Source: a virus. From it: a DNA stretch of 20,154 nucleotides. Positions 5,010 through 16,297 of the stretch are shown piece by piece. How positions within the stretch are numbered: the stretch's first letter is position 1; each line of letters opens with the position of its first letter. The DNA lies in the IMG/VR virus record IMGVR_UViG_3300008629_000048, positions 1-20,154 of that record; one strand, 5' to 3'. Position numbers and translations under genes: made by a program. The notes under the pieces are model-generated. The model was not told the origin of the DNA. It saw only the letters and a list, made by a program, of their open reading frames with translations, and made no database searches.

Positions 5010-5723
5010 TTATTTTAATTCTTCTTGTTTCCAGCAATTCAAGTTCGCTGCCACTGTTCTTCTTTCTCCTTCTCCAAAGAATGGATAGACCATGTGTTGC
5101 ATCCAAGATGGAAACATTAACTGTCTTCCGATCTTAGGTTGTAGTGTAATTGATTGTGGTGGTCTTAGTCTCTCAGTGTTCATTATCTCGTTACGACCAT
5201 AAGTAAAAGCCAAAAACCCATCACAAGCACCAGAATCATTATAAAGACTGTAGTTTTCTGAACTTCCTTTTTCTGTTTCTCCTAGCTTACCTATTTGTTC
5301 TGGAACCATAGTCCAACAAGTACTAGATATACCCATGATTGTTTTAGTGCCGTGATCGTGTATCGGATTATAATCTCCTTCGAAACTATGTACAGACCAC
5401 AGTTCGTCTATGTCTACAATACGCGATTCAAACTCTGCACCTGTTATATTTGCAAAGGTATTAATATACATTGCTCCCATTGTTGTTATAAAGCTATAAT
5501 AATCTTCTAAGCTTTTGTGCTTGTGGTCCATTAAGAGTTGCTCGCCTTGATGTATTTGTCCGACCAACGTACCTGCAAGTGATTTCTTCTCTGCTGTTTC
5601 TTTGTATTCGTCTAAGTATTCGTTTAAATCATCTATAATATCATCTGGCAATTGACACTCTAACATCACAGCCGCAGGAAGACTATGTACTTGCATATTA
5701 AGTTCTTCTTGATTTAACTCCAC
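5010..5723 (-). CDS. phage-type 2OG-Fe(II) oxygenase
   Basis: A 237-residue protein matching the putative phage 2-oxoglutarate/Fe(II)-dependent oxygenase family (double-stranded beta-helix fold). N119-x-x-H122-D-H124 provides the first metal ligands, FPSWMQH (204-210) carries the distal His210, and ERRTVAANLN (220-229) provides the Arg that would bind 2-oxoglutarate and the final strand. Such enzymes hydroxylate amino acid or nucleotide substrates using 2OG and O2; the substrate of phage members is generally unknown. The first candidate start is GTG 5723 overlapping the upstream stop. An ATG nine codons later (5696) is an alternative. It lies in the packaging arm among small unknown genes, so a virion-protein modifying role is possible but unproven. 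Confidence 0.82.
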   Translation of the reverse strand: MELNQEELNMQVHSLPAAVMLECQLPDDIIDDLNEYLDEYKETAEKKSLAGTLVGQIHQGEQLLMDHKHKSLEDYYSFITTMGAMYINTFANITGAEFESRIVDIDELWSVHSFEGDYNPIHDHGTKTIMGISSTCWTMVPEQIGKLGETEKGSSENYSLYNDSGACDGFLAFTYGRNEIMNTERLRPPQSITLQPKIGRQLMFPSWMQHMVYPFFGEGERRTVAANLNCWKQEELK

Positions 5724-6306: not shown

Positions 6307-6724
6307 TATCTTCTATTTCTACTGTTTCTGCCTCTATAACTCTCTTCTCAGGTAGTAAGAATATACCGCCTCCACCACTATGATTGATATCCAGGCGCTC
6401 ACTCTTAACAACACCCACCCGATCCAAGACCGATTGAGCTGCTTGGAGCTTATTGCTGGCTTGTGGGATAGGTCTATTAGACTCCATGATCTCCAAGAGT
6501 TTGAATGCTGCTTTAGGCGCCGACTGCGCGAGTATTTCTTGGGTTATATCCAATACTTCTTGCTTCAAGCTCTTCAATAAATGGTAGTGAGAACTTTTAT
6601 ATCCCGCCAATGACGCCGCTAACTTAGCATCTCCCTTGGTTTCTATGAGATTATCAAGGAAAGATTGTTGTTTTTCAGACAACTTACGCTTATCTGTTTG
6701 ATTTAGTGTGGATAATTGGTTCAT
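6293..6724 (-). CDS. probable terminase small subunit
   Basis: 143 residues from ATG 6724. The frame extends upstream to a GTG at 6739, but that codon lies in the -10 promoter box, so it is unlikely to be used. The N-terminal KRKLSEKQQSFLDNLIETKGD then KLAASLAGYKSS is the helix-turn-helix pattern of small terminases, with a helical APKAAFKLLEIME oligomerisation region, QAAQSVLDRVGVVKSERLDI, and a tail with Gly-Gly-Gly-Gly-IFLLPEKR. Small terminases bind the packaging site and stimulate the large subunit. The gene is first in the leftward packaging arm, which fits. The predicted transcription start falls on the A of the ATG, implying a leaderless message. Confidence 0.7.
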   Translation of the reverse strand: MNQLSTLNQTDKRKLSEKQQSFLDNLIETKGDAKLAASLAGYKSSHYHLLKSLKQEVLDITQEILAQSAPKAAFKLLEIMESNRPIPQASNKLQAAQSVLDRVGVVKSERLDINHSGGGGIFLLPEKRVIEAETVEIEDNDGA

Positions 6725-6730
6725 AGATCT

Positions 6731-6758
6731 AGTATACACCTGTTTGGGGATTTGTCAA
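6731..6758 (-). promoter_or_regulatory. leftward sigma70-type promoter for the packaging arm
   Basis: On the minus strand: -35 TTGACA (6758-6753), 16-base spacer, -10 TATACT (6736-6731). A start six bases after the -10 falls at 6724, the A of the small terminase ATG. This is the only good promoter seen for the leftward operon. It is back to back with the rightward promoter at 6782. Confidence 0.75.
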
Positions 6759-6781
6759 GTTAAAAATAAATTAAATAATAC

Positions 6782-6810
6782 TTGACAAAACTGAAATACA
6801 AGTGTAAAAT
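6782..6810 (+). promoter_or_regulatory. rightward sigma70-type promoter
   Basis: -35 TTGACA (6782-6787), 17-base spacer, -10 TAAAAT (6805-6810), expected start near 6817. The -35 boxes of this and the leftward promoter form an inverted CTTGACAA pair about 21 bases apart, so the two promoters could compete or share an activator/repressor. The transcript would run into the structured block at 6994. Confidence 0.72.
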
Positions 6811-6833
6811 AGCTTTAGGCGCCAGTCGGTAAA

Positions 6834-6863
6834 CCCCTATCTCCCCCCACCCAATCTACCCCC
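6834..6863 (-). promoter_or_regulatory. G-quadruplex motif
   Basis: Four C-runs on the plus strand (6834-6837, 6843-6848, 6850-6852, 6859-6863) give G-runs of 5, 3, 6 and 4 on the minus strand with loops of 6, 1 and 5 bases, meeting the usual G4 pattern. In otherwise AT-rich DNA this C/G tract stands out. It lies in the initially transcribed region of the rightward promoter, with the G-rich strand as template. Confidence 0.5.
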
Positions 6864-6872
6864 TTTTTACGC

Positions 6873-6901
6873 AAGCTATATAGCGCATAGAAGCTATATA
6901 G
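6873..6901. repeat. tandem CTATATAG operator-like repeats
   Basis: AAGCTATATAG occurs at 6873-6883 and again at 6891-6901, start to start 18 bases. The first copy contains a perfect palindrome GCTATATAGC (6875-6884), the second is one base off. Spaced palindromes downstream of a promoter are typical of dimeric repressor sites, but no regulator is identified. Confidence 0.4.
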
Positions 6902-6993
6902 TTCTTCGTTGATGGCAAGTCTTTGTTGTCGGCGGGATCTGGTTGACATATAAATCCTATAATTTTGTACGTTCATTACATATATACCCATGT

Positions 6994-7106
6994 ATCCCCT
7001 ATGGTCTCCTGCCTAGGTACTTCATAGTCTTTGAAGGTTCTGCATAATCCCTTCAAAGATCTTCCAAGACTATGAAGTGCCTAGTCAAATCGCTAGTTGA
7101 GATGAA
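6994..7106 (+). repeat. left border module: 16-base box, 75-base hairpin core, 22-base box
   Basis: Box A, ATCCCCTATGGTCTCC (6994-7009), a 75-base core (7010-7084) that forms a hairpin, and box B (7085-7106, containing TCAAATCGCTAG). Both boxes recur in inverted orientation at 8318-8429, with a core of identical length and unrelated sequence. Confidence 0.8.
7013..7084 (+). repeat. long hairpin 1 (core of left border)
   Basis: Outer stem of 19 pairs between 7013-7031 and 7066-7084 with one G.U (T7018/G7079). The inner stem CTTTGAAGG (7029-7037) with CCTTCAAAG (7050-7058) competes for three bases; the loop is 12 bases and a ~7-base bulge lies on the 3' side. There is no T-tract after it, so it is not a simple terminator. 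Confidence 0.8.
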
Positions 7107-7117
7107 TTATAAGTTAT

Positions 7118-7203
7118 AAAACCCTACAAAATACTTTGTAAACTGTTCTTGGAGTTGATGAGAGATATGAAGTTTACAAAGTATTATTATTTTGTAGGGT
7201 TTT
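7118..7203 (+). repeat. long hairpin 2
   Basis: The left arm 7118-7143 is complementary to the right arm 7171-7203 through AAACCCTACAAAA and TACTTTGTAAACT halves, interrupted only by a six-base insertion (TTATTA) on the 3' arm. Stem ~26 pairs; loop ~26 bases. Confidence 0.8.
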
Positions 7204-7213
7204 GTTTCTATAT

Positions 7214-7406
7214 TTGTTTGTCAAATCCTTAACAGTTCTTCACAGTATTTAATAAAATATCAGAACCATTGCAAAGATCTTAACGGTAAGACAGAAGAAC
7301 CTGATCTACGCAATGGACGCATACGCTTTCTGATATTATTTAAATACTACAAATTCCATTTGGGAATTTGAATTGTGAAGATTTGTTAAGGATAGAATTG
7401 ACAAAC
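7214..7406 (+). repeat. branched long hairpin 3
   Basis: A succession of stems: 7216-7224/7398-7406, 7225-7233/7385-7393, 7238-7243/7375-7380, 7244-7251/7341-7348, 7258-7265/7328-7335 and 7266-7272/7310-7316. The 3' arm carries a side hairpin CAAATTCC/GGAATTTG (7350-7357 with 7363-7370), giving a three-way junction. About 48 pairs in all; G7235/T7383 is a wobble on the plus strand. Confidence 0.8.
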
Positions 7407-7414
7407 ATATCATG

Positions 7415-7562
7415 ATACAAAAATTTATAGTAAGCTGTCAATAATTTATAGTTGCAAGGCAACGAAAATTATACGTTTTTTAAGTAATGATTTAAAAATA
7501 GACACGGCGCAAAGCGCATTTTAAATCAATTAAAAAACTTGACAGCTTACAAATTTTTGTGT
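7415..7562 (+). repeat. branched long hairpin 4
   Basis: Stems 7417-7426/7551-7560, 7430-7441/7539-7550 (GTAAGCTGTCAA with TTGACAGCTTAC), 7475-7483/7530-7538 and 7488-7497/7519-7528, with an apical GCGC-AAA-GCGC (7507-7517). The 5' arm has a side hairpin built from ATAATTT/AAATTAT and GTTGC/GCAAC (7441-7472). The hairpin ends about 40 bases before the first small gene. Confidence 0.8.
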
Positions 7563-7604
7563 TAGGGTAAGGGTAATATTCATGTCATATAAGGAGTAAT
7601 AAAT

Positions 7605-7874
7605 ATGAGCATTAAAAATAATATTGAAATTCATTTCATCTTCGCCGATAACTTAGTCGCTAGGTTTCTTGACCTAGCAGACGCATACGAGTTTTTAGTT
7701 GGGCATTTTGCTCATCTAAAATCGAGTGAGTCTATGTTATCGCGCGAAGATGTTTTACTTGGAGTTTTGTCATCAGGTCTGTCTACTGAAGATGAAACAT
7801 TTATTAATAGGCAGGTAGCTCTTAATCGAGAGTTTCAAACTAGGAGTAGTACTGATGACAAAATCATCCAGTAA
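7605..7874 (+). CDS. hypothetical protein 1 inside the structured block
   Basis: 89 residues, ATG 7605 with an AAGGAG site eight bases upstream. The peptide has a hydrophobic/aromatic N-terminal half (IEIHFIFADNLVARFLDLAD, AYEFLVGHFAHL) and a polar C-terminal half, with no signal peptide, membrane span or known motif. The gene lies wholly within the self-complementary block. A 16-pair stem (7637-7652 with 7736-7752) and smaller hairpins such as GCTAGGT/ACCTAGC (7659-7678) are embedded in its coding sequence, so synonymous choice appears constrained by folding, or the frame is accidental. Its end overlaps the next gene by 20 bases. Coding is favoured by the Shine-Dalgarno site and overlap, but is not certain. 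Confidence 0.5.
   Translation: MSIKNNIEIHFIFADNLVARFLDLADAYEFLVGHFAHLKSSESMLSREDVLLGVLSSGLSTEDETFINRQVALNREFQTRSSTDDKIIQ
7637..7752 (+). repeat. long stem inside hypothetical gene 1
   Basis: CATCTTCGCCGATAAC (7637-7652) pairs with 7736-7752 (GTTATCGCGCGAAGATG), 16 pairs with one bulged base. Inside it are GCTAGGT/ACCTAGC (7659-7665 with 7672-7678) and a weaker CTCA/TGAG hairpin. A rival partner for the left arm, GAAGATGAAA, occurs just downstream near 7789-7798. Confidence 0.7.
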
Positions 7875-8250
7875 AACTAAGACTCAGGCTAGCGGTTCGG
7901 TTCACGAATCGATTTTCGCCAGTTCTGAGAAAGAAGAACCAACAATGAATCAATGTAAATATTTGATTTATTTGTACAGGGAAATCCTTAAGGCGAAAAT
8001 CCTTAAAAGGCACGAATTTATACAAAGTGCCAAAACCAGTGATTTCCCTTGGTTTGCAGGCGCGAACCGCAGACCTGCATCATTCGCTATTCATCTCTTA
8101 AACACTTTTAGTGTTGATCAGAGTCTGAATCGAGGCGCGGTTAGTAAATTAATTGATAATGCGAAAACCAATCAAGCTTTTGATCTTAAGTTTGTCAAAG
8201 GTTTTCTCGATTCAGTTAATACCTACTACGCTAATCGTAATAAGGCTTAG
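7855..8250 (+). CDS. hypothetical protein 2 inside the structured block
   Basis: 131 residues. ATG 7855 has AGGAG eight bases upstream and overlaps gene 1; a shorter version could start at ATG 7945 (MNQCKYLIYLYRE). The first 30 residues are Ser/Thr/Lys-rich and look disordered. The rest is basic and helical, with KYLIYLYREILKAKILKRHE, an FPWFAGANRRP segment, and a C-terminal KLIDNAKTNQAFDLKFVKGF helix. No family recognised; nucleic-acid binding is plausible from the basic helices. Coding sequence coincides with long-range stems (7885-7899/8063-8077, 7911-7920/7992-8001, 8079-8089/8248-8258, 8125-8134/8206-8215), and the start codon sits in a hairpin (7850-7873). A strong terminator follows directly. 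Confidence 0.5.
   Translation: MTKSSSKTKTQASGSVHESIFASSEKEEPTMNQCKYLIYLYREILKAKILKRHEFIQSAKTSDFPWFAGANRRPASFAIHLLNTFSVDQSLNRGAVSKLIDNAKTNQAFDLKFVKGFLDSVNTYYANRNKA
7885..8077 (+). repeat. long-range stem set A inside hypothetical gene 2
   Basis: CAGG-x3-GCGGTTCG (7885-7899) pairs with CGAACCGC-x3-CCTG (8063-8077), 12 pairs with a 3x3 internal loop. It encloses GATTTTCGCC (7911-7920) with GGCGAAAATC (7992-8001), the AATCAA/TTGATT hairpin, and AAACCA/TGGTTT (8033-8038 with 8050-8055). Confidence 0.6.
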
Positions 8251-8258
8251 CGAATGAT
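8079..8258 (+). repeat. long-range stem set B at the end of hypothetical gene 2
   Basis: ATCATTCGCTA (8079-8089) pairs perfectly with TAGCGAATGAT (8248-8258), straddling the gene's stop codon. It encloses AACACT/AGTGTT (8101-8115), CTGAATCGAG (8125-8134) with CTCGATTCAG (8206-8215), and AAAACC/GGTTTT (8164-8169 with 8200-8205). Confidence 0.6.
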
Positions 8259-8261
8259 AAG

Positions 8262-8310
8262 AATCCCAGACTAGACTTCGTGTTTAGTTTGGGATTTTTT
8301 TTATTTTTTT
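8262..8310 (+). terminator. strong Rho-independent terminator
   Basis: Stem 8262-8276 with 8282-8296 (15 pairs including two G.U, five-base TTCGT loop), followed by eight T, an A and seven T. It lies 11 bases after the stop of hypothetical gene 2 and would end the rightward transcript from 6782. It sits inside the outer border helices, which is hard to reconcile with a single uninterrupted RNA over the whole block. Confidence 0.85.
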
Positions 8311-8317
8311 CCTGTTT

Positions 8318-8429
8318 TTCATCTCACTAGCGATTTGATAAAAAATTCTGTTGTCTGTTTCGAACTGGCAAAGCCAGGTCTCAACAGTTCTTCTTAATTC
8401 TTCTGAATTTTTTGGAGACCATAGGGGAT
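8318..8429 (-). repeat. right border module (inverted copy of 6994-7106)
   Basis: Box B (8338-8318 on the minus strand, one base shorter than the left copy), a 75-base core (8339-8413) and box A (8414-8429, exact complement of the left). The core forms its own hairpin: AAAAAATTC (8340-8348) with GAATTTTTT (8405-8413), then CTGTT/AACAG and CTGGC-AAA-GCCAG (8365-8377). It shares no obvious sequence with the left core. Confidence 0.8.
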
Positions 8430-8487
8430 CATATTTATTTTTTGTTCTTATTAATTTTACAAAAAATTTATAAAAAATAAATACAAG
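8430..8487. other. AT-rich spacer
   Basis: A very AT-rich stretch between the structured block and the origin-like repeats. It could act as a DNA-unwinding region for the neighbouring DnaA boxes. No gene, promoter or terminator is convincing here. Confidence 0.4.
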
Positions 8488-8538
8488 CGCCTCTGATTGA
8501 GGGCATAAAATAAACTTATCCGCCTCTTATTGAGGGCA
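8488..8538 (+). repeat. 33-base-spaced direct repeat next to DnaA boxes
   Basis: CGCCTCTGATTGAGGGCA (8488-8505) recurs at 8521-8538 with one change (17 of 18 identical), start to start 33 bases. Each copy contains CCTC...GAGG, a small dyad. The spacing equals that of the DnaA-box units at 8579 and 8612, suggesting an iteron-like array. Confidence 0.6.
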
Positions 8539-8557
8539 AAATAATAATACACACAAG

Positions 8558-8660
8558 ATATCCACAAAAAATAAAGAGTTATCCACAACAAATTAACACA
8601 AGAATACACACTTATCCACAGGAAATTAACACTAATTTATATTAAATTAATTTATACTAG
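8558..8660 (+). other. DnaA-box cluster, candidate replication origin
   Basis: Two perfect consensus DnaA boxes TTATCCACA (8579-8587, 8612-8620) and one near-consensus ATATCCACA (8558-8566), all in the same orientation with start spacings 21 and 33, close to two and three helical turns. A further half-match TTATCC is at 8516-8521. The two perfect boxes are each followed by a shared AAATTAACAC segment, so the repeat unit is ~22 bases. An AT-only stretch follows (about 8632-8656). It lies at the point where leftward and rightward arms diverge and just ahead of the first early gene. This is the standard make-up of a DnaA-dependent origin; direct proof is lacking. Confidence 0.6.
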
Positions 8661-8663
8661 GGC

Positions 8664-8692
8664 TTGACTTTCGCAAACTTTTCTGGTAAAAT
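8664..8692 (+). promoter_or_regulatory. sigma70-type promoter for the zinc-ribbon gene
   Basis: -35 TTGACT (8664-8669), 17-base spacer, -10 TAAAAT (8687-8692). Start expected near 8699; the leader begins with a small CCTT-CCGC-AAGG hairpin. One of three near-identical promoters within 630 bases. Confidence 0.75.
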
Positions 8693-8740
8693 CTGGGCAA
8701 CCTTCCGCAAGGAACAAAATAAAACAACATAGGAATTAAT

Positions 8741-10164: not shown

Positions 10165-11130
10165 ATGAATAGAACAGAAGTCCTAGCAAATCTAGGCAAT
10201 TATAACGGCGCTGATTTTTCAGTACGCAAAGAACCTTTACATATACAAAGTAAAGGATTTTTTGATACAACACAAAGCGGAAGGTATCAACGTGTTTTTG
10301 ATAGCATAGATTCTCATGTAGCATTGGTGCGTGAAGATACAAACCAAGTATTAAGTGTGGTTGGTGCAGGGTATAATCCTGTTAAACATAGCACTGCATT
10401 TAAAACAGCAGAGAATGTTATTGAATTGTCTGATCTTGATATAACAGGGATCACAAGAGAAACTAGATGTTCTCATGATGGTGCTAGAGCATATAGTATC
10501 TACACATTACCAGAACACAGAGTTAATCTTGGTAGAAAGAATGATGATGTAGCATTAACTATATCAGCAAGAAATAGTTTTGATGGTTCGTGGTCATTCA
10601 CAGTTGAGGTCGGCGGTTTTAGATTTATCTGTTTAAATATGCAAGTGTTTGCTAATAACTTTGCAATCCACAAATCTAAACACACTAAAGGTCTTAATCT
10701 ACAGCGTGTTGCTGATAAATTATCAGAAGCTGTTAGATTCTACGATCAAGAAACTGAATTGTGGCAAGAGATGGTTGATACTAAGATAACAAACAATGAT
10801 GCTATGACTATATTGGCACATTTATCTAAGGCTAAAACAGTAGATGCGCATTTAAATTCTGGAAAATATACAACTGAAATTTTATATCAACCAGATGTAA
10901 TTAGAAATAAAACATTATCTAAATTGTGGGATTATTGGATAGTCAATAATAGACAATTAGATGGTACAGCGTGGGCATTATATAATGCTATGACTGAATG
11001 GGCAACACATGGTTCTGTAACTAAGAAATCATCTATTGGAAACTACGCATCATTACAAATTGATCGGCTTGACAAAGTTAGAAAGACTTTAAATGAGAAG
11101 ATGATTCCTAGTTTGAAGTTGGTGGCATGA
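10165..11130 (+). CDS. DUF932 phage/plasmid-like protein
   Basis: 321 residues, ATG 10165 with GGAG seven to eight bases upstream. It matches the DUF932 / phage-plasmid-like protein family (TIGR03299 type): an N-terminal part with VVGAGYNPVKHSTAFKTAEN (~65-84), a central GGFRFICLNMQVFANNFAIH segment (~148-167) carrying the conserved C-x-N-x-x near the middle, and a helical C-terminal half. Members are widespread in phages and plasmids; the biochemical function is not established, and some are found beside recombination genes. Here it leads a run of small genes before the SSB-like protein. Full length compared with the family. Confidence 0.85.
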   Translation: MNRTEVLANLGNYNGADFSVRKEPLHIQSKGFFDTTQSGRYQRVFDSIDSHVALVREDTNQVLSVVGAGYNPVKHSTAFKTAENVIELSDLDITGITRETRCSHDGARAYSIYTLPEHRVNLGRKNDDVALTISARNSFDGSWSFTVEVGGFRFICLNMQVFANNFAIHKSKHTKGLNLQRVADKLSEAVRFYDQETELWQEMVDTKITNNDAMTILAHLSKAKTVDAHLNSGKYTTEILYQPDVIRNKTLSKLWDYWIVNNRQLDGTAWALYNAMTEWATHGSVTKKSSIGNYASLQIDRLDKVRKTLNEKMIPSLKLVA

Positions 11131-14284: not shown

Positions 14285-14559
14285 TGGCAGAGACTAATGA
14301 AAATAGAATCTCTATCCTTCATCAAGGAGTAGAAATATTTCAAGATGAATTAGACAGTTCTGCATCAGTCAGAGCATTTAACAATGTTGTTATGCTTGAT
14401 TCTGAAGCAGTTAAACTTGATGATCGTAGAATAGATACTCAAATCAGAAGAAATGGGTGGGCAGATATATTGCGACAATTACATGCGCCAATGCCTGAAA
14501 GTTCTGAAGATTCTGAGGTAGAAGAAACGGAAGAAGTAGAAGAAACTACTGATTCTTAA
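14284..14559 (+). CDS. acidic hypothetical protein between SSB and primase-helicase
   Basis: 91 residues, start overlapping the SSB stop by one base. The middle (VRAFNNVVMLDSEAVKLDDR, then RRNGWADILRQLHAP) looks helical; the last 25 residues are almost all Glu/Ser/Thr/Val (SSEDSEVEETEEVEE). The position in the replication operon suggests an accessory factor, possibly binding a basic replication protein through its tail; no family recognised. Confidence 0.65.
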   Translation: MAETNENRISILHQGVEIFQDELDSSASVRAFNNVVMLDSEAVKLDDRRIDTQIRRNGWADILRQLHAPMPESSEDSEVEETEEVEETTDS

Positions 14560-14568
14560 ATTAAACTG

Positions 14569-14632
14569 GGTTAGACCTGTGTTAAAGGACGCGAGTAATT
14601 AACGCGCAACATAGGTCTAGCCTTTTCATTTT
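14569..14632 (+). terminator. strong hairpin before primase-helicase, terminator or attenuator
   Basis: GGTTAGACCTGTGTT (14569-14583) pairs with AACATAGGTCTAGCC (14608-14622), 15 pairs with two G.U, and the loop contains a further CGCG/CGCG. TTTTCATTTT follows. The T-tract is interrupted, so termination may be partial, or the stem may be an RNA processing site setting the ratio of SSB to helicase. Confidence 0.65.
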
Positions 14633-14644
14633 ATGGAGATAGAA

Positions 14645-16297
14645 ATGGAATTAAAACAAAGTACATTTGTAAAACACAAACTACCTTGTCCTAAATGCGG
14701 CGGTTCAGATCCAGTATCATTAAATGGTGATGGCTCTGCTAAATGCTTTAGTTGCGGTACATTTTTTACAGACTACAAAAATCCAAAAGGAACAACGACA
14801 ATTAATAAAGTGAACAATACATCTTATTTAAATTCATACGCGGGTACTTATGGTGCTTTAACTGATAGGAATATAACAGAAAAAACAGCAAAAAGATATG
14901 GTGTTCGTGTTGTATATGGTAATGATGGTAGTGTTATAGAACACATCTACCCATATTATAACGGCAACGAAATTGGTGCTGTGAAAACTAGATATGTTAA
15001 TAACAAAAGCTTTAGAGTTAATGGTACTTATGAAGGTACTGGTTTATTTGGCGAACAACTATATGGTAAATCAAAAATGCCTCTTACAATAACAGAAGGA
15101 GAGTGTGATGCTCTCGCCGTTGTTGAACTAGGAATTAAATCTGCTGTTGTCTCTATCAAAAGAGGATCTGCAGGTGCTGTTCGTGATATAAGAGATAGCA
15201 TAGAATTTATTGAATCATTTGATAAAGTAATTATTTGTTTCGATAATGACAAAGCAGGTAGAAAAGCGGCAAGAGATGTTGCGCGTATATTAAAACCTGG
15301 CAAGGCTAAGATATTACAACTGCCTAATGGATACAAAGATGCTAATGATATGCTCAACAATAATAGATTTGCAGAGTTTACTAAAGCATGGTTCGAAGCA
15401 AAGCCATATACACCTTCAGGAATATTAGAGTTATCCAGTAAAAAAGATAAGTGGATTACTAGAGAAATAAAAGAAAGCATTGCTTATCCTTATGAAGGAT
15501 TAAATAAAAAACTATATGGTTTAAGAAAGAATGAACTCCTAACACTAACAGGTGGAACAGGACTTGGTAAGAGTAGTGTTGTTAGAGAACTAGAACACTG
15601 GTTGATTAAACAAACAAAGGATAACATAGGTATCATGGCACTCGAAGAGAATTGGCAACGCACCGCCGATGGTATCATATCAATTGAAGCTAACGACAGA
15701 CTATATATAAATGAGATTAGAGATAATTATTCAGAAGATAAGCTGTCTAATTTATTTGATAAAACTATACAGAAAGGTCGTGTCTTTATACACGCTCATC
15801 TTGGCGTCAATGATATCAATGAGATCTTTTCTAAATTAAGATATATGATTATTGGTTGTGAATGTGAGTGGGTTATTATAGATCATCTTCATATGCTTGT
15901 ATCATCACTACCTGACACAGACGAGAGGCGTGGTATAGATGTTCTCATGACTAAGTTAAGAAGTCTTGTAGAAGAAACTGGTGTAGGTATGATACTTGTA
16001 TCACATCTACGCAGAGTAGGTGGAGACTTAGGACATGAGAAAGGTGTTCAAGTTTCGTTGAGTCATCTTAAAGGCTCTCAAAGTATAGCGCAACTATCCG
16101 ATAGTGTAGTTGCTATTGAAAGAAATCAGCAAGCTGATGATCTTACAGAAGCCAATACAACAATTGTCCGCGTATTAAAATCTAGATACACAGGATATAC
16201 AGGGTATGCTTGTTCTCTGCTTTATGATGCAGACACAGGTAGATTAAGTGAACTTACAAATGAGGAGACATTCGATAATGAAAAATCAGATTTCTAA
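14645..16297 (+). CDS. T7 gp4-like DNA primase-helicase
   Basis: 550 residues from ATG 14645, chosen because GGAG lies six bases upstream; an in-frame ATG at 14633 has no ribosome site. The N-terminal zinc-binding primase domain has C15/C18 and C34/C37 (PCPKCGG ... KCFSCG). The TOPRIM domain has TEGECDAL (E151) and CFDNDKAGR (D200, D202). The RecA-like helicase has Walker A GGTGLGKSS (303-311), Walker B WVIIDH (D413), VSHLRR, and a KSRYTGYTG arginine-finger region. The tail ends EKSDF, acidic with terminal Phe, like the polymerase-contacting tail of T7 gp4. It synthesises primers and unwinds DNA at the fork, and overlaps the polymerase gene by 20 bases. Confidence 0.96.
   Translation: MELKQSTFVKHKLPCPKCGGSDPVSLNGDGSAKCFSCGTFFTDYKNPKGTTTINKVNNTSYLNSYAGTYGALTDRNITEKTAKRYGVRVVYGNDGSVIEHIYPYYNGNEIGAVKTRYVNNKSFRVNGTYEGTGLFGEQLYGKSKMPLTITEGECDALAVVELGIKSAVVSIKRGSAGAVRDIRDSIEFIESFDKVIICFDNDKAGRKAARDVARILKPGKAKILQLPNGYKDANDMLNNNRFAEFTKAWFEAKPYTPSGILELSSKKDKWITREIKESIAYPYEGLNKKLYGLRKNELLTLTGGTGLGKSSVVRELEHWLIKQTKDNIGIMALEENWQRTADGIISIEANDRLYINEIRDNYSEDKLSNLFDKTIQKGRVFIHAHLGVNDINEIFSKLRYMIIGCECEWVIIDHLHMLVSSLPDTDERRGIDVLMTKLRSLVEETGVGMILVSHLRRVGGDLGHEKGVQVSLSHLKGSQSIAQLSDSVVAIERNQQADDLTEANTTIVRVLKSRYTGYTGYACSLLYDADTGRLSELTNEETFDNEKSDF

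Follow-up and report, generated by a model that had tools for sequence, protein, structure and literature searches.

Messenger RNAs of the hok type are inhibited by folding back on themselves, and transposons of the foldback or IS200/IS605 type carry hairpin-forming or inverted ends. The element described here, a folded block between divergent phage operons, has ends similar in type to those of such transposons; however, its place in the genome is the same in all loci examined, and Pfam and PHROG searches with its two proteins, ORF A and ORF B, found no transposase or recombinase gene inside it. ORF B of a second group of relatives (group 2) was likewise without match. As in hok-type mRNAs and the 5'-3' UTR pairing of icaR (PMC3868564), long-range pairing within an mRNA can bury ribosome-binding sites. 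In contrast to these, the paired region extends, in the phages we call rod-type, over most of a two-gene operon instead of one short segment, the end stem straddles the terminator, and no antisense antitoxin was identified for the element. Buried starts, a trait of fold-back mRNAs, are found in the rod-type phages and not at ORF A in the group of the sequence analysed here, and the 3'-5' pairing that such mRNAs form within the transcript here involves right arms (of the closing stems P1 and P2) beyond the terminator.

The giant ornate RNAs GOLLD, ROOL and OLE (PMC12286853) share with the element a kilobase-scale elaborate fold, unknown function and occurrence in bacteria or phages, and the element also folds far more stably than its shuffles. 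Unlike them, it has no Rfam match, encloses two conserved protein genes, is poor in G-U pairs and has a topology that is not conserved, its RNA nature and strand being putative; the absence of a GOLLD match rests on the full Rfam scans, as RF01998, searched on its own, is group-II-D1D4-1. Obelisks, which are viroid-like RNAs (PMC11922315), are similarly oceanic, about 1 kb long and rod-like with a coding sequence in the fold, whereas the element occupies a fixed locus of a dsDNA phage genome, with a promoter and a terminator and without an Rfam ribozyme match (a distinction drawn from locus, signals and Rfam). Group I and II introns with ORFs also combine a structured domain with a reading frame, but no Rfam intron model matches the element, which sits in the gap between divergent operons and does not interrupt a gene. 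None of the families compared here shows a leader whose complementarity to an entire operon is strand-symmetric. We know of no system in which a noncoding arm of 600-800 nt is kept complementary to an entire two-gene operon and covarying stems seal the ends.

The folded block and its genes

The window, that is, the whole stretch of 20,154 bases analysed (IMG/VR virus record IMGVR_UViG_3300008629_000048, positions 1 to 20,154), is a fragment of a HMO-2011-type marine podophage. The terS gene starts at 6739 and the late genes run leftward, the early genes run rightward, and the folded block lies between them. Its features, with those of its flanks, are as follows.

6731-6758 (-): leftward promoter of the terS (late) operon, TTGACA-N16-TATACT, from sequence; same divergent arrangement in L006, L016 and L033
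6782-6810 (+): rightward consensus promoter feeding the element, TTGACA-N17-TAAAAT, from a scan; same place in relatives
6943-6971 (+): second, weaker promoter-like site directly before the left end, TTGACA-N17-TGTACG, suggested by sequence and leader alignments
6994-7009 (+): left arm of the end stem P1, by exact complementarity and covariation
7000-7017 (+): left-end motif TATGGTCTCCTGCCTAGG, variants in all relatives
7010-7087 (+): hairpin H1, from the fold
7085-7106 (+): left arm of the second closing stem P2, from the fold; P2 also in relatives
7118-7203 (+): hairpin H2, arms GTTTACAAAG/CTTTGTAAAC; motif recurs in leaders of other groups
7209-7409 (+): long hairpin H3 with a side hairpin, from the fold
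7415-7562 (+): long hairpin H4 with side hairpins, from the fold
7605-7874 (+): ORF A, 89 aa, ribosome-binding site TAAGGAG, from the ORF list, relatives and dN/dS
7855-8250 (+): ORF B, 131 aa, purifying selection, from the ORF list, relatives and dN/dS
8259-8299 (+): intrinsic terminator hairpin with U tract, from a sequence scan
8318-8338 (+): right arm of P2, past the terminator, from the fold
8345-8413 (+): last hairpin, between the right arms of P2 and P1, from the fold
8414-8429 (+): right arm of P1, by exact complementarity and covariation
8579-8587 (+): DnaA-box-like TTATCCACA in the right flank, from sequence; a second about 33 nt further
8664-8692 (+): separate promoter-like site of the downstream early operon, TTGACT-N17-TAAAAT, from a promoter scan

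Folding of 6994-8429 yields -528.5 kcal/mol on the plus strand, compared with -318.1 +/- 8.4 for 60 dinucleotide shuffles (z -24.9), and -477.1 kcal/mol on the minus strand, with a shuffle mean of -290.5 (z -21.8). When 300-nt segments were folded over the whole 20 kb, the five covering 6901-8400 gave z from -4.4 to -9.2 on the plus strand and from -2.4 to -13.3 on the minus strand. The adjoining segments (6601-6900 and 8401-8700; z -0.5 to -1.9) show that the flanks fold like random sequence, and the anomaly begins and ends at 6994 and 8429. The original observation of a block folded end to end holds, and its reading as a giant structured RNA is partly supported: the fold is real, sharply bounded, far outside the shuffled range on both strands and covarying in many phages. 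The proposed 16-base terminal complement (P1) is exact, the complementarity of 7085-7106 to 8318-8338 contains an exact 13-mer (7085-7097/8326-8338) inside P2, and both, together with every nested hairpin and long-range stem that had been listed, are present in the minimum-energy fold. A fold with DNA parameters closes P1 and P2 as well. Rfam, searched with all families (giant RNAs, introns and riboswitches included), returned 0 matches in the window at the curated cutoff and weak, mostly miRNA-like matches below it, which fits the claim of an unrecognised layout.

What did not survive is the description as a pure structured RNA, as the block encloses a two-gene operon and its terminator. Stems at 7637-8258 sit in two real overlapping genes that had been missed, and the stem at 8262-8296 is the intrinsic terminator. 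Strong ribosome-binding sites precede both ORF A and ORF B, which encode real proteins and have homologues in relatives at the same position. Purifying selection on ORF B is seen in its dN/dS, which is 0.12-0.27 in four pairs and 0.44-0.80 in three pairs that are close and differ by few changes. Selection on ORF A is weaker (0.28-0.74 where measurable, with zero in one close pair). In-gene folding exceeds that of synonymous-codon shuffles in both (z -4.8 for ORF A, -5.7 for ORF B). Neither protein has a Pfam match, a convincing PHROG match or a PDB profile match, and protein family searches with the group-2 ORF B gave none either. The AlphaFold model of ORF B is poor and all-helical (pLDDT 58). 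No relative was found by tblastn of ORF B of both groups against 50,697 phage records, nor in the genome contigs scanned with the ORF B of the window's group (group 1).

Several further observations concern the surroundings. The putative site at 6943-6971, which the consensus scan did not pick up, has a similar counterpart in relatives. The promoter before P1 carries operator-like half-sites CTGGTTAA and TGTAAACTAG, and a related word, GTTTACAAAG, recurs in leaders (relatives L033, L039, L040 and L043), as if one phage regulator binds both. To the right of the element, 8490-8620 holds TTGAGGGC repeats along with the DnaA-box-like sites, features that this flank shows in the window's group; TTGAGGGC is also found to its left in L005 and L006. 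The late operon carries a 2OG-Fe(II) oxygenase-like gene (5010-5723, minus strand) between terS and terL, and the early genes include one for a DUF932 protein (10165-11130). A second, weaker fold anomaly on both strands (14401-14700; z -4.0 and -4.7) covers the last part of a 91-aa ORF together with the beginning of the primase-helicase gene.

Relatives, closing stems and two topologies

TerS and TerL of the window are closest to those of Pelagibacter phages HTVC115P, HTVC103P and HTVC104P, followed by HMO-2011-type phages, which were described as a dominant marine viral group (PMC9038755) in a paper that leaves noncoding or intergenic structure unmentioned. Searches with TerS and ORF B recovered near-identical copies, two diverged loci that form group 1 with the window (L005 and L006), and the group-2 loci, whose shorter, barely alignable ORF A and ORF B occupy the same position. 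The left-end motif ATAGATATA-N14-TGGTCWCCTGC is present in 117 IMG/VR contigs representing 98 distinct loci, and its gap is 14 in 128 of 129 matches. Where enough sequence was available (75 loci), a right arm forming 9 or more of the 10 core Watson-Crick pairs was found in 44, as compared to 0 of 75 when the reverse complement of the same region served as control. A looser cut is passed by 60 loci (22 sequence clusters), with the complementary right arm 1.1-1.5 kb away. The seven complete loci folded first are all far more stable than their shuffles, whichever strand is taken, with z from -16 to -33.

In the closest isolates, HTVC115P (L021/L022) and HTVC103P (L023/L024), the site has neither ORF A/B nor a long inverted repeat. 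Both keep a TATGG-containing motif, GGGGGTATGG or CCCCCTATGG, where the P1 left arm would be, and a complementary right arm was not found nearby. Scans of the first 50 kb of HMO-2011 and HTVC033P in 600-nt windows gave nothing comparable (lowest z about -8). The only Rfam match among 11 related loci is one tRNA, a gene at 2121-2202 on the minus strand of L012. Since dozens of related viruses keep such an element despite very different sequences, its folding is real and conserved and, as far as the searched libraries show, undescribed.

The closing stems of the original prediction covary in these homologues. In the alignment of 22 P1 arm pairs, pairing holds in 92.3% of cells, and 8 of the 10 base pairs have changed in both arms. 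The covariation score of 0.427 compares with 0.101 for shuffles (0 of 500) and with 0.08-0.14 for slid arms; these figures are inflated because the right arms were chosen largely as best complements. A partly independent anchor, which fixes part of the right arm, returned the same P1 arms in 49 loci, where the arms vary only modestly. P2 sequences differ between clusters and match within each (score 30.6 for own arms vs 16.7 for crossed arms), with 18 of 22 clusters exceeding the 95th percentile of crossed pairs. Between L033 and L035 there are 14 double compensatory changes that keep pairing, falling in P1, P2 and the leader-ORF A and leader-ORF B helices, where a rough estimate expects about 2 by independent change.

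While these ends covary, the interior layout differs between groups, and the window's layout is not conserved: most relatives reach equal self-pairing by another topology. In group 1, whose elements form a body of local hairpins, the leader pairs with 1-4% of the coding nucleotides, while 60-67% of them pair inside the coding part; in most group-2 loci the two shares are 56-89% and 0-10%. In the rod type, which comprises most loci outside group 1, a noncoding leader of 600-800 nt pairs along the downstream operon in patches of perfect 8-30 bp helix; L052 forms an almost complete rod (-665 kcal/mol), and L010, L016 and L131 are intermediate between the topologies. With the leader alone shuffled (figures from 10 of 13 loci), leader-coding interaction in seven rod-type group-2 loci amounts to -82 to -196 kcal/mol vs about -10 (z -17 to -50); in group 1 it is -43 to -93 (z -10 to -18) and comes from the closing stems. 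The leader also pairs with a terminator arm in L033 and L016. Opening a start site costs 11-32 kcal/mol in rod-type phages vs 7.9 +/- 5.1 for 12 other genes of the window, and the ORF A start in the window's group is accessible at 3.6-6.2 kcal/mol. Such burial is not independent evidence, being automatic if the leader complements the whole coding region. Two other descriptions were rejected. A simple inverted duplication of the genes is not indicated by blastn of elements against their own reverse complements, which gave short pieces only, apart from L012 (68.6% over 344 nt) and L084 (66.7% over 111 nt), and one-sided bulges, seen in L052, failed as a rule across loci. The conserved trait is self-complementarity; the fold itself is not conserved.

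RNA, DNA or mutational by-product

We tentatively favour reading the element as an early transcription unit that folds on itself. Its left-end promoters would give an RNA with a long noncoding leader followed by ORF A and ORF B, and under the leader's action the RNA would fold up as a compact body of double helix. In rod-type phages the leader would zip over the entire coding region and bury both ribosome-binding sites; in the window's group, leader and genes would each fold into hairpins of their own. P2 and P1 could then lock both ends in transcripts reading through the terminator, and in this form the RNA would be shielded and yield little protein until opened by translation or by a phage or host factor. 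We infer that the element works as RNA, that transcripts read through the terminator and that regulation results. This mRNA reading is favoured by the consensus promoter directly upstream, the dN/dS of ORF B, the leader-coding interaction, the cost of opening rod-type start sites, the pairing of leader with terminator arm, the covariation of P1 and P2 and the double changes between L033 and L035. An excess of G-T over A-C mismatches in group 1 (10:2; 4:0 under stricter rules) and plus-strand folds richer in G-U than minus-strand folds in 3 of 3 group-1 phages point the same way. It is weakened by the accessible ORF A start in the window's group and by the canonical terminator (8259-8299), which lies inside the closing stems and is followed by the right arms of P2 and P1.

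The pairs themselves are almost all Watson-Crick. In 29 elements, G-U accounts for 1.8-9.9% of pairs on either strand, well under RNA-like levels (15.6% in 16S rRNA, 7-16% in shuffles and 11-14% elsewhere in this phage). Separate pair counts taken from whole-region folds were noisy, the flanks being included. The scarcity of G-U on both strands, with end stems on either side of a terminator, counts against both the RNA identity first proposed and the mRNA reading, and it would be natural for the main rival, a DNA-level structure near the replication origin, which we judge somewhat unlikely. Such a structure would fold when the DNA becomes single-stranded close to the origin and terS, as the phage genome is replicated or packaged, or would extrude from supercoiled DNA; P1 and P1' would be DNA signals and the two genes passengers. 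Equal numbers of G-T and A-C mismatches in group-2 helices (30:30; stricter, 13:12), closure of P1 and P2 in the DNA fold of the window, and adjoining DnaA-like boxes agree with it, as does the cumulative GC-skew minimum of a 55-kb relative, at which the element lies. However, late and early genes diverge at that same point, so the minimum need not mark an origin. The modest plus-strand G-U excess of group 1 also speaks against a DNA structure, and it is not obvious why coding DNA would pair with a leader.

Instead, if replication repeatedly switched templates by foldback and so used one arm to copy the other, perfect patches could accumulate without function. The perfect 8-30 bp patches and the double changes lacking G-U intermediates, some of them adjacent, are what such copying would leave, but we consider a by-product improbable: the pairing is confined to one locus with defined, conserved and covarying ends, self-pairing is retained in both topologies, and group-1 coding sequence is chosen for pairing beyond synonymous shuffles.

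There is also a slim chance that the functional molecule is a leftward, minus-strand RNA antisense to ORF A and ORF B. Several group-2 phages fold better on that strand (L092, -640 vs -461; L053, -635 vs -507; L062, -596 vs -484), a preference that holds after allowing for composition, accompanies a near-normal G-U share (9.3-9.9%) and weakens the mRNA reading; end-stem intermediates, moreover, are A-C on the plus strand in eight loci. Against this, the window, L006 and L107 fold better on the plus strand and other phages are neutral, the consensus scan found no leftward promoter near the window's right end, and strand-biased mutation, which could yield an identical polarity in each phage, keeps the strand tests from being decisive. 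Assembly artefact or chance, conceivable since IMG/VR contigs are metagenome assemblies, is already refuted in practice by a motif common to 98 distinct loci from many samples and by the 7 of 7 loci first tested that fold far outside shuffles.

It is quite possible that the element stands for a previously unseen class in phages. In this class a long noncoding arm would be kept Watson-Crick complementary to the entire adjacent operon, covarying stems would seal the ends, and selection would act strand-symmetrically on self-complementarity (of DNA or of RNA from both strands) and not on one RNA fold. Under such selection the topology may switch between a rod and a multi-hairpin body. Should the working molecule be RNA, giant RNAs would gain a new, protein-coding kind, and mRNAs a new means of being locked or protected; should it be DNA, the element would represent a novel type of structure associated with origins or packaging. 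In either case its carriers are HMO-2011-type phages, a dominant viral group of the sea (PMC9038755).
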